Program-made: the position numbers and the translations under genes | DNA from: Corynebacterium durum | GTDB taxonomy: Bacteria > Actinomycetota > Actinomycetes > Mycobacteriales > Mycobacteriaceae | NCBI RefSeq assembly: GCF_030408675.1 | Contig: NZ_CP047200.1 | Coordinates: 1,302,001-1,366,000 of the forward strand | Direction of reading: 5' to 3' | Length of the DNA: 64,000 nt | Notes under the pieces: model-generated | Told to the model about the DNA's origin: nothing | Databases searched by the model: none | What the model saw: the letters and a program-made list of their open reading frames with translations, nothing else | Part shown: piece after piece, positions 50,876-53,432 of the stretch | How the letters are laid out: each line of letters begins with the position of its first letter | Position numbering within the stretch: the first letter of the stretch is position 1

Positions 50876-51400
50876 TTGATCCCCGAACAATACAACATCG
50901 ACGAACTCGCCGCCCAACTCAACGACGACTCCGTTGTGCTCGGGGCGTATGGACGAGAACATCCAGGAGCGGAACAGGATATCGCCACCATCCTGGCCAA
51001 CGCGGAAAACCAAGGTCGGGGTTCTTTTGGCTTCGTTGCACTCGATGAAACTCCAGCTCAGACCGCCGACCTCAGGGACATTGCCCAAGAGCTGCTCGAC
51101 ACCACCAATATCAACACCATCATTGTGCGGGCGCCGGGAAGTGGGGCGATTGTAAGCGATCAGTACTCTCGTAAGACCGTTGAATTGGCGCAATGGGATC
51201 TGTTGGGGAATCCAGACTATGTCAGTGCCGTGGACAACTATGTGGCCAGTGTGAGTAGCGATTCCACCCCATGGGGGCTGGTCACTGTCGGCCTATGTCT
51301 GGTGATCGTTGCAGCAGTCGTGTGCACGTTTTTGAGCTTGACGTTGCGTGTACATACATCTGAAAAATCTGCACGTCTAAAGGGGCCCTTGGCTATGTGA
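50876..51400 (+). CDS. Rv1476-like membrane protein, 174 aa
   Basis: Conserved in Mycobacteriales between acn and the ripA-type gene. An N-terminal soluble domain (about 1-125: MIPEQYNIDELAAQL, INTIIVRAPGSGAIVSDQYSR) resembles the TPM-like fold of membrane proteins seen at this position, followed by one hydrophobic helix (about 135-157) and a short basic tail. TTG 50876 is preceded by GGAAGG (50863-50868) 7 nt upstream. The function is unknown; synteny suggests a link to the adjacent peptidoglycan hydrolase. Its stop codon is part of a terminator stem. Confidence 0.82.
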   Translation: MIPEQYNIDELAAQLNDDSVVLGAYGREHPGAEQDIATILANAENQGRGSFGFVALDETPAQTADLRDIAQELLDTTNINTIIVRAPGSGAIVSDQYSRKTVELAQWDLLGNPDYVSAVDNYVASVSSDSTPWGLVTVGLCLVIVAAVVCTFLSLTLRVHTSEKSARLKGPLAM

Positions 51401-51427
51401 CAGACTTCATAGTCTGTGATTTTTTTG
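51400..51427 (+). terminator. Intrinsic terminator after the Rv1476-like gene
   Basis: Stem ACAGACT (51400-51406) / AGTCTGT (51411-51417) with loop TCAT, then GATTTTTTT. Its first base is the last base of the upstream stop codon. Confidence 0.85.
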
Positions 51428-51437
51428 TTAACCGCGC

Positions 51438-51484
51438 AGGCCAGCACCATATCTACCATCCTCTGGATGGCATGGTGTTGGCCT
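51438..51484 (+). repeat. Two-part long hairpin upstream of the NlpC/P60 gene
   Basis: Outer arms AGGCCAGCACCAT (51438-51450) and ATGGTGTTGGCCT (51472-51484) pair over 13 bp with one G-U. Inside them a second stem CCATCC-TCT-GGATGG (51456-51470) is perfect. TTTACTT follows, so it may be a second, weaker terminator. Confidence 0.65.
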
Positions 51485-51534
51485 TTACTTGTGTGACCAA
51501 TGAGATTGAAGTGTTGTTTGTTGTGAAAGTGGAC

Positions 51535-51540
51535 TATTGT
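51535..51540 (+). promoter_or_regulatory. Possible -10 of the NlpC/P60 gene
   Basis: TATTGT, predicting a leader of about 180 nt that includes the riboswitch candidate. The -35 match is poor. Confidence 0.3.
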
Positions 51541-51581
51541 TAAGAATGTCGGCTCACGGGGTTGGTTTGTGACGTCGATAA

Positions 51582-51694
51582 CCACGCTAAACCGCACATC
51601 ATGGTGTGCAGCGGGCACGTGGGGAAGCATGCCACGCACCACCAGACGTGAGGCAGCTGCTTATTCGACGCAGACAATCAACCTCGTGGGCGGG
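51582..51694 (+). ncRNA. Candidate cyclic-di-AMP (ydaO/yuaA-type) riboswitch in the leader of the NlpC/P60 gene
   Basis: The 3' part contains GACA-N3-AACCTCGT-GGGCG (51671-51690 region), very close to the conserved ydaO end GACAGCUAACCUCGUAGGCG. The 5' part has CGCTAAACC (compare GCCGAAUCC), a small hairpin GCACA...TGTGC, then CGGGCACGTGGGGAAGCATG (compare the GGGGGA core). CC-CGC (51582-51587) can close P1 with GCG-GG at the end. ydaO elements are known upstream of cell-wall hydrolase genes in actinobacteria. The alignment was made by eye, and some core positions differ. Confidence 0.45.
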
Positions 51695-51725
51695 CTTTTA
51701 TTTGGTTCACATAAAAGGAGTTTTC

Positions 51726-53432
51726 GTGGCACGCACGCGATTCACTCGGCGGCTGATTGCCATTGCACTGAGCAGCACAATACTGACCGCGACAATCGCA
51801 TCACCTGAGGCAGGGTTGGCGCAGCCCGTCAATCCAGATGATTCGGAAATCGCCACGGCGGAAAGCAATGTGAACACAAACTCACGCAACGTCGCACAGT
51901 TGGCCAATACACTCAGCAACACCCAGAACGACATCAGTCGCCTGGAAAACGAAATGGGCGGATTGCGGGAAGCGGTCAACAAAGCCCTTGTTGACCTCCA
52001 TGATGCTCAAGCATCCGCAGAGCAAGCCCGCCAAGCTGCCCGCGCCGCCCGCCAGGAACTCGACGATGTACAAAACCAGATGACCCAGGCGCAGCAGCGG
52101 CTCGACGAGTTTTCACGCTCTGCCTACCGCAAGGGTGCCTCCAATCCGGGCGTGTCAGGGGTCGCGGGGACCAAACACTCTAACGATGCCCTTGACCGAC
52201 AAACCTACCTACGCACCAACATTGCCAAGCAACGCGCCATCATCGACCACCTCGATCACCTGCGCACTGACAAAGCCAACAAAGAATCACAGCTGCGAGA
52301 AGCCAGCAAGCTGGCAGAACAACGCGAGGCGCAAGCTGCTCAGGCCAAAGAAGCGGCACAGAATGCCATTAATGAAAATTCCCGCCTGATTGAGCAGCGC
52401 ACCGCGTCTCTGAAGAACCTAATGGCGCAGCGCGATGACGCGCAGAAGAAGCTTGATGCCGCCAAGTCCACGTCCGACACGTTGAATAATCAGCGCAAGG
52501 AATATCAGGATTATCAGAAAGCCAAGGAAGAGCGGGAGCGTGCCGAAGCTGAGGCTGCAGCTGCGGAGAAAGCTCGCCACGATGCCGAACAAACCCAGGC
52601 TGATGCCCAGGCCCGTGCGGACGCCGAGGCGGACGCTGCAGCAACAGCAAACGACGCACATAAATCAGATGCTGAAGAGCGGGCGCGTACCGCCGCTGAT
52701 GAGGCCGAACGTGCGCGCACTAATACACAAGAAAAGACAACCCAAGCTCAGCAAGCGCAACAGCACCACGATGCTGCAACGGCCGCCGCGGCTGATGCGG
52801 CAGCCAAGATTGCCGAGCTATCACCGGATCACACCAATCTGGACAGCCCGTACCCCACGGACTTGGATGCTGACGCTGCCACCATCGCAGCCTTGCAAGG
52901 CCCTCAACAGGACAACCAACAGGATGATGCGGCCACCGGTAGTAGCAGCTCCTCGCTGAGCACTCTCGACACCGTTACCAGCGATGCGTCTGCGAGCGTC
53001 AGCGGATCAAAGGAAGAGAAAATCGAGGCCGTCATTGCACGCGCACAGTCCCAGGTGGGGCTGCCATACGCTTGGGGCGGAGGTAACGCCAGTGGCCCGA
53101 CTCAGGGTATCCGCGACGGCGGCGTTGCCGATTCCTTCGGCGATTACAATAAGGTCGGCTTCGACTGTTCTGGGCTAGTGCTGTATGCCTTCGCCGGTGT
53201 CGGCATTGCATTGCCACATTACACGGGTTATCAGTATGAACGTGGCACTAAAATCTCACCGAATGAGATACAGCGCGGTGACCTGATTTTCTACGGCCCC
53301 AATGCCGAGGACCACGTGGCCATTTATCTTGGTGACGGCCAGATGCTCGAAGCCCCACAGTCTGGCTCTCAGGTGCAGGTTTCTCCTGTGCGGTGGACCG
53401 GTATGAGCCCGTATGCAGTGCGTTTGATCTAA
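51726..53432 (+). CDS. Secreted NlpC/P60 peptidoglycan endopeptidase (RipA/RipC type), 568 aa
   Basis: Predicted D,L-endopeptidase cutting peptide stems during cell separation. Order: signal peptide (RRLIAIALSSTILTATIA, cleavage near GLA before QP), long coiled coil (about 45-380, very rich in Ala, Gln, Glu, Arg), an acidic/Ser linker, and the NlpC/P60 domain (about 430-568) with catalytic Cys481 in GFDCSGLV, His530 in EDHVAIYLG and the PYAWGG motif. The coiled coil resembles FtsX-regulated hydrolases. GTG 51726 has AAGGAG 5 nt upstream. The position next to acn matches C. glutamicum and ripA in mycobacteria. Confidence 0.94.
   Translation: MARTRFTRRLIAIALSSTILTATIASPEAGLAQPVNPDDSEIATAESNVNTNSRNVAQLANTLSNTQNDISRLENEMGGLREAVNKALVDLHDAQASAEQARQAARAARQELDDVQNQMTQAQQRLDEFSRSAYRKGASNPGVSGVAGTKHSNDALDRQTYLRTNIAKQRAIIDHLDHLRTDKANKESQLREASKLAEQREAQAAQAKEAAQNAINENSRLIEQRTASLKNLMAQRDDAQKKLDAAKSTSDTLNNQRKEYQDYQKAKEERERAEAEAAAAEKARHDAEQTQADAQARADAEADAAATANDAHKSDAEERARTAADEAERARTNTQEKTTQAQQAQQHHDAATAAAADAAAKIAELSPDHTNLDSPYPTDLDADAATIAALQGPQQDNQQDDAATGSSSSSLSTLDTVTSDASASVSGSKEEKIEAVIARAQSQVGLPYAWGGGNASGPTQGIRDGGVADSFGDYNKVGFDCSGLVLYAFAGVGIALPHYTGYQYERGTKISPNEIQRGDLIFYGPNAEDHVAIYLGDGQMLEAPQSGSQVQVSPVRWTGMSPYAVRLI

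Follow-up and report, generated by a model that had tools for sequence, protein, structure and literature searches.

Which element occupies the leader of the ripA gene of Corynebacterium durum, and what reads it? The question arises from a window of 64,000 nucleotides (the whole stretch of DNA that was analysed; contig NZ_CP047200.1, positions 1,302,001 to 1,366,000, forward strand), for which an earlier note had proposed a cyclic-di-AMP riboswitch of the ydaO/yuaA class at 51582-51694, upstream of an NlpC/P60 hydrolase gene. The comparisons described here bear out that such a gene lies downstream and that its leader is, to judge from its covariation, a conserved structured RNA, and they assign this RNA to another class.

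The ripA locus and the ydaO-like segment of its leader

The gene encodes a long protein whose C-terminal residues 445-565 match Pfam NLPC_P60 (E 1.5e-27). It is flanked by an Rv1476-family gene on one side and a ferrochelatase gene on the other, with an aconitase gene upstream, a setting that we take to be the ripA neighbourhood. The Rv1476-type gene ends, before the ripA promoter, in a hairpin resembling an intrinsic terminator (GGCCAGCACCAT...ATGGTGTTGGCC followed by TTTACTT, 51439-51483), and a similar stretch also precedes ripA in two relatives (L032 and L033). The features of the leader and the gene are the following:

51535-51540, plus strand: -10-like box TATTGT, which reads TATGGT in many Corynebacterium relatives
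51549-51565, plus strand: SL1, predicted 5'-terminal stem-loop TCGGCTCACGGGGTTGG (consensus by eye UCGRCUCRYGRGUYGA)
51552-51564, plus strand: 5' strand of the predicted helix P1, GCTCACGGGGTTG, a 13-bp complement (with G-U pairs) to 51679-51691, overlapping SL1
51602-51645, plus strand: predicted outer stem around the core hairpin, to which belong the three column pairs with the largest pairing excess among all those of a 60-column alignment
51614-51633, plus strand: predicted core hairpin GGCACGTGGGGAAGCATGCC, with covariation over 79 relatives
51620-51627, plus strand: its loop UGGGGAAG, an octaloop of the form [U/C]GGGGAAG
51679-51691, plus strand: 3' strand of P1, CAACCTCGTGGGC, the segment that had been read as ydaO-like
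51713-51720, plus strand: Shine-Dalgarno-like sequence AAAAGGAG, whose 5' part could pair with CTTTTAT at 51695-51701
51726-53432, plus strand: ripA, coding for a coiled-coil NlpC/P60 endopeptidase, with a GTG start at 51726

The predicted element spans 51549-51691, and the stretch 51549-51694 folds at -70 kcal/mol, compared with -49.3 +/- 3.4 kcal/mol for 200 dinucleotide shuffles, none of which was as stable (z = -6.1), while SL1 folded alone reaches -4.2 kcal/mol (z -1.5). Because the 5' strand of P1 overlaps SL1, the two structures are mutually exclusive. A hairpin sequestering the Shine-Dalgarno sequence was also considered in the window and was dropped as too weak, the local pairing with CTTTTAT giving -3.4 kcal/mol (z 0.00 against shuffles). 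Likewise, the pairing that the 3' strand of P1 might make with the start region if P1 were unformed (51679-51730) is no better than in shuffles (-10.9 kcal/mol, z -0.75).

How much of the ydaO reading stands, then? The strings on which it was built are all present (GCTAAACC at 51586-51593, CGGG...GGGGA at 51612-51625, and AACCTCGT at 51680-51687 followed by GGGCGGG), and their likeness to the 3' consensus of ydaO looks coincidental. The RF00379 covariance model, whose gathering cut-off is 38 bits, gave no match at E <= 10 in either 51300-51900 or 51545-51700, nor any at the ripA leader in a whole-genome search with stricter filters, and membership of that family was rejected. Rfam 15 returned zero families at cut-off over the whole window, and there were no Rfam matches for the leader or for eight related loci; a relaxed search gave three matches in 51545-51700 (one microRNA and two snoRNA families, 12-15.5 bits) and microRNA and snoRNA noise alone in 51300-51900, RF00379 being absent from both. 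The same genome does hold RF00379 copies elsewhere (68.9, 37 and 37 bits), the best of which (L013) precedes a paralogous NlpC/P60 gene (Pfam NLPC_P60 E 3.6e-24). The two 37-bit matches, just below the cut-off, share a strand, are separated by about 1.3 kb (G000:C1:769727-769905 and 771054-771232) and look like a duplicated riboswitch with its gene.

When the ripA leader is compared by eye with the alignment of that best copy, the RF00379 segments GGGGAACCA, GGGGUGAAUCC and CAGCUAACC, present in the copy, are missing from the leader, and what the two have in common is AACCUCG/GGCG alone. This belongs to a P1 strand that changes in relatives, where the counterpart of the AACCTCGTGGGC strand reads otherwise (e.g., CGGCCCGTGCGTC or AACTCGTGTGCC). 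The comparison with related leaders, which the earlier note had suggested, does reveal covariation, but in a pairing other than that of ydaO: the ripA leader is, on this comparative evidence, a structured RNA and not a ydaO riboswitch, and the segment read as ydaO-like is one strand of the predicted 13-bp helix P1. The ends of the element can pair, as had been proposed, although the covarying partner of the 3' AACCTCGTGGGC strand is the 5' stem-loop strand at 51552-51564, upstream of the proposed start; the interval 51582-51694 cuts off the closing helix's 5' half, since the element starts at about 51549.

A divergent c-di-AMP riboswitch would fit the type of gene and the local likeness of AACCTCG/GGCG, and another corynebacterial NlpC gene, C. 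glutamicum cg2402/nlpC, is preceded by an RF00379 aptamer and has published c-di-AMP control, according to the accessible part of PMC9960051. With the model silent at the ripA leader, the core segments missing by eye and a different structure covarying, such a divergent member is nonetheless exceedingly improbable. The two systems (for RF00379, C. glutamicum cg2402/nlpC and rpf1) share a position in the leaders of cell-wall hydrolase genes of the same bacteria, and possibly translational control; they differ in structure and in the location of the RF00379 copies, which sit elsewhere in the genome.

A hairpin and a long-range helix in Corynebacterium ripA leaders

A blast search of the leader against 242 genomes of the genus returned a recurrent short patch (about 51612-51640) located before ripA. 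Together with a pattern search it yielded 104 loci, in which the motif is present by choice and two of which (L031 and L088) are one place; ripA lies downstream of the motif in these relatives, except for 12 loci without it within 1.5 kb. Three of the 12 are read as chance (L068, L074 and L077), and four genomes proved on re-reading over longer stretches to have NlpC downstream. In three Corynebacterium genomes (L175, L178 and L179, from G006, G137 and G005) an open frame with an NlpC domain starts some 670-860 nt past the loop, and L175 has a second TGGGGAAG farther upstream.

For the alignment, 79 sequences were kept (ripA at most 1.5 kb downstream, at least 110 nt upstream, no near-duplicates), kinship among leaders being controlled only by the cuts that led from the 104 loci to these 79 and on to 65 and 39. 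In this gapless alignment of the hairpin GGGGAAG is invariant (79/79), in sequences that were picked by a pattern containing it, with up to two mismatches permitted anywhere and none falling on those seven bases. The stem, in turn, varies (GGC/GCC, TGC/GCA, AGC/GCT, CGC/GCG and others), with both sides changed in eight of ten pairs, 85.1% of cells paired (71.1% when shuffled) and a covariation score of 0.346 versus 0.125 for shuffles, none of 500 reaching it; sliding the partner by one to three columns lowers the score to 0.06-0.15. A leader peptide starting from the hairpin ATG, the one ATG considered, was rejected, since the T of GGCATG is C in 14/79 and G in 1/79 and a C. glutamicum-like group lacks the ATG (GGCAAACGGGG). 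This also sets the hairpin apart from uORF attenuators, known in Corynebacterium from ilvB-II (in the accessible text of PMC10272879), given that its ATG is not conserved.

A covariance model, R1, matched once per genome in 157 of the 242 Corynebacterium genomes (E <= 0.005). From 30 genomes without a match, 29 further leaders were chosen by ripA and not by the motif, and 27 of them keep [UC]GGGGAAG on different stems; the thirtieth genome (G080) was already in the set as L144, with the loop present. The C. glutamicum-like group, for instance, has GGCAAA-CGGGGAAG-CUUGC. The loop was missing from two of the 29 stretches first read (L222 from G049, L230 from G084), and in a longer stretch of G084 (L383) a stem does carry CGGGGAAG, at some 1.2 kb upstream of the estimated start, which was judged too far. 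When GTDB contigs were scanned for the core pattern, 45 stretches were hit, and in 39 of them ripA follows on the same strand; the other six were in Phycisphaerales, Halobacteriales, Longitalea, Planctomycetaceae, Streptosporangium and C. tuscaniense, this last with 380 nt of downstream sequence only. R1 matches outside the genus were set aside as chance: in 13/13 loci that were read, they sat inside long open frames, with differing stems and no adjacent ripA.

The 5' end of the leader tells a second story. An SL1 pattern was matched in 66 of the 79 leaders (none in 13), one of them, L073, being a false site that was dropped, so that 65 leaders served for the P1, folding and -10 tests, and 39 under a stricter similarity limit. 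In 53 of the 65, a TAnnGT box begins 13 nt upstream of the SL1 reference base, and in two the distance is 14 nt (none was found in 10), a near-fixed spacing that looks as if transcription began at SL1. For P1, each leader was paired with the segment downstream of its own hairpin (+36 to +88) and with those of other species, and the own pairing proved stronger, at -16.77 versus -14.23 +/- 0.33 kcal/mol (0/10000 permutations), and at -16.85 versus -13.89 +/- 0.42 kcal/mol (0/10000) in the 39 less related leaders; two control windows farther downstream gave z +0.9 and +0.8. A wider scan was likewise exceeded by 0/5000 permutations, yet the own segment was often not the best one for a given leader (mean rank 0.33). 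These permutations show a predicted long-range helix, P1, that encloses the hairpin in Corynebacterium.

Published RNA-seq places a transcript of C. glutamicum, cgb_17355, at this spot. The part of PMC4046766 available to us catalogues it as a small RNA encoded in trans, 67 nt long (1,626,662 to 1,626,596, minus strand, between cg1735 and cg1736), in a locus whose structure is conserved according to RNAz (p 0.95); cg1735 is also named in the accessible part of PMC9960051. Mapping to genome G113 (3,309,401 bp) relied on the TPP riboswitch of cg1655, given at 1,544,490-1,544,383 in the accessible text of PMC3890552 and found at 1,543,023-1,542,916, which sets an offset of 1467. SL1 of G113, at 1,625,194, then falls on 1,626,661, and the published 5' end lies 1 nt before it. 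Intergenic region, strand and 5' end thus agree with the element, whereas the accessible part of PMC4046766 describes a trans-encoded sRNA and mentions neither the ripA leader, nor the hairpin, nor a family.

Could the arms be an inverted repeat of DNA, acting as an operator for a transcription factor near the start site? The strand tests are level on this point: folding of the 65 leaders gives z -1.88 for the sense and -1.91 for the antisense strand (sense better in 28/65), and over the ten pairs of the 79-leader alignment G-U and A-C count 33 and 29 (p 0.70), with 21 versus 8 for pairs -4 to -6 alone, 26 versus 21 once -1 and -2 are added, and mostly an A-C mismatch at pair -3. Leader z-scores are weakly below those of downstream sequence (-1.88 vs -1.46, Wilcoxon p 0.10). 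For these reasons an inverted repeat at the DNA level keeps some weight, and in other genera (see below) the hairpin stands directly downstream of TACGGT. Nevertheless, an operator is improbable, considering that the arms vary while the asymmetric centre is conserved, the opposite of usual operators, that the hairpin of Corynebacterium begins 44-135 nt (median 77) after SL1 and so at a varying distance from the promoter, and that P1 covaries across more than 100 nt.

The hairpin in other genera and before an M23 peptidase gene

Direct reading of ripA leaders from other genera of the family, which we take to be the Mycobacteriaceae of GTDB, revealed the same loop. Among 57 other-genus genomes searched, 42 ripA loci were read, and 27 of them, from 15 genera, have a TACGGT or similar box with the hairpin and its loop close behind. 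The exact loop is missing in the other 15, some of which may be paralogues or stop short of the promoter; one of them (L347) has UGGGGAAA. Three more of the 15, all from one genus (L336, L344 and L350, from G253, G298 and G280), carry, by eye, a strong-looking hairpin with the related loop AAGGGAAG replacing UGGGGAAG, a possible variant whose partner might have changed along with it. Once near-copies were left out (L310, L318, L321 and L332), the 23 remaining hairpins covary at 0.403 versus 0.236 when shuffled (0/500), and the number of further pair types is unremarkable, 74/500 shuffles being equally high. No closing helix, SL1 or P1 was seen in these genera, the conserved part being a short hairpin of about 25 nt.

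A second model, R2, was built from these 23 hairpins. At E <= 5e-4 it matched 113 of 301 genomes of the family, drawn from 15 of 31 genera, with one match per genome except for six genomes of one genus with two. In 30 of 30 inspected loci from that set ripA lies downstream on the same strand, the loop being present in all of them by construction, as R2 was built on it. Across the order, R2 matches below E 1e-5 were confined to the family. An extension to the whole order was discarded: among the 30 loci listed, five had ripA, all of them in the family, and 25, both inside and outside it, lay in long open frames without ripA. Altogether, the covariation shows a predicted hairpin with the octaloop [U/C]GGGGAAG on changing stems, present in ripA leaders from at least 15 other genera as well as from most of the genomes read in Corynebacterium.

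The second R2 match in G245 (genus g5; L381:1390-1424) leads to a second gene: there a RipA-type hairpin occupies the leader of an M23 peptidase that looks secreted (Pfam E 4.5e-33). Of 30 M23 loci taken from the family, the five of g5 have it in all five genomes, 129-236 nt upstream of the M23 match and at identities down to 57%; the 25 others contain a single CGGGGAAG hairpin, 391 nt upstream, taken as chance. This second use of the predicted hairpin, before an M23 endopeptidase gene, is thereby shown for one genus. Being found in both ripA and M23 leaders there, the hairpin precedes two unrelated families of peptidoglycan endopeptidases, which would make up a small shared regulon. In three g5 genomes (L386, L387 and L388) CGGGGAAG occurs a second time, within the M23 coding sequence some 60 nt after the match begins, where a strong GC stem carries it. 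In most of the loci L416-L443, AGTGTCG occurs twice, over the -10 region and in the 3' arm of the hairpin, a direct repeat that may be a DNA-binding site.

Candidate readers of the loop

Covariation, a constant place before ripA and a published C. glutamicum transcript are what a conserved cis-regulatory leader RNA is expected to display, and the identity of 51549-51691 as a conserved RNA element is, on this evidence, highly probable. We lean, with less assurance, towards the fuller reading, in which the ripA mRNA opens with a structured RNA that acts in cis and has its loop read in trans, tipping the balance between SL1 and P1; the mechanism by a trans-acting factor, taken by itself, is put forward tentatively. 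It would be an RNA-binding protein, most likely, that reads the conserved loop, and its binding or loss would favour one of SL1 and P1 over the other. Having a strand in common, these two could serve as alternative states of a switch. Such a shift would alter the translation or the stability of the mRNA for a potentially autolytic enzyme, control at the level of ribosome access being possible. In the other genera, where the hairpin lies close behind the -10 box, the factor might act directly on translation or decay.

Why in trans? The 65 Corynebacterium leaders show no enrichment of the loop's complement (mean z -0.48 to -0.09 over four leader regions), and we infer from this that the loop has a trans-acting partner or binds a ligand. 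Post-transcriptional action of a trans-acting factor is the reading favoured, a protein being preferred to a metabolite and a metabolite to a small RNA. An intramolecular switch, in which a CUUCCC segment would mask the ripA Shine-Dalgarno sequence unless the loop paired with it, draws on similar segments that several leaders of other genera have some 94-105 nt downstream (e.g., L303, L313, L317 and L329, with shuffle p values of 0.03-0.05 each, uncorrected for 17 tests). The median p is 0.27 over the 17 scorable leaders (of 27 tried), the segment is missing in several short leaders and the Corynebacterium leaders show no enrichment, all of which leaves such a switch very doubtful; an anti-Shine-Dalgarno pseudoknot, attractive in some other-genus leaders, was rejected as not general.

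A metabolite riboswitch of a new class, with UGGGGAAG as part of the pocket and P1 as the switching helix, would account for a closing helix that excludes SL1, for the conserved loop and for the position in the leader. Such a ligand is unlikely, as the conserved part in other genera (about 25 nt, with no closing helix seen) is small for an aptamer, and neither a terminator nor a general arm sequestering the Shine-Dalgarno sequence was found. A C-rich small RNA might also use the loop as its seed or kissing site. One such RNA, 6C (RF01066), has matches at E <= 0.1 in 12 of the 14 genus genomes searched (four above the family cut-off) and C-run loops such as CACCCCCCCCGA, allowing four G-C pairs with GGGG. 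In the 6C loops that were read, without systematic scoring, CUUCCCC is missing and only the GGGG run finds a complement, so the conserved AAG is left unexplained; besides, two of the 14 genomes have no 6C match, one of which (G160) has the hairpin. There is little probability in this pairing, and a trans-acting protein is still the preferred reader.

Structured leader RNAs as such are a known kind, and this class appears to be new: in a literature search limited to papers outside subscription, and leaving supplements aside, no title or opening of an abstract points to this element, and cgb_17355 turned up in a single paper. The NLPC-P60 RNA motif of Streptomyces is named for its position before NlpC/P60 genes; no Rfam family with such a name (if one is in Rfam 15) matched the window or the eight related loci. 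An RNA switch of M. tuberculosis belongs to a gene that we take to be rpfB, other than ripA. According to the accessible part of PMC6009663, it is tied to a cell-wall lytic enzyme of a related bacterium, a likeness of setting.

RipA is described, in the part of PMC9897464 available to us, as a main cell-separation hydrolase of corynebacteria and their relatives and as one that needs a tight hold; the words promoter, leader, transcription, untranslated and riboswitch are all missing from that article in a word search. Given its presence upstream of this gene across many species of Corynebacterium and in related bacteria, the ripA-leader RNA probably helps to control the cutting of the cell wall at division. 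More speculatively, this may be a new RNA class, old in Mycobacteriaceae, whose octaloop UGGGGAAG is read by a dedicated factor that couples the production of endopeptidases acting on peptidoglycan (RipA, plus the M23 enzyme of one genus) to a signal from the envelope or from division, as a post-transcriptional checkpoint of cell separation. The hairpin of about 25 nt is a defined bait for fishing out the binding factor from a harmless laboratory strain, and cgb_17355, catalogued as a small RNA encoded in trans, would gain a location and a likely role from the finding. A conserved RNA in the ripA mRNA would add to the control of this enzyme a post-transcriptional layer common to many genera.
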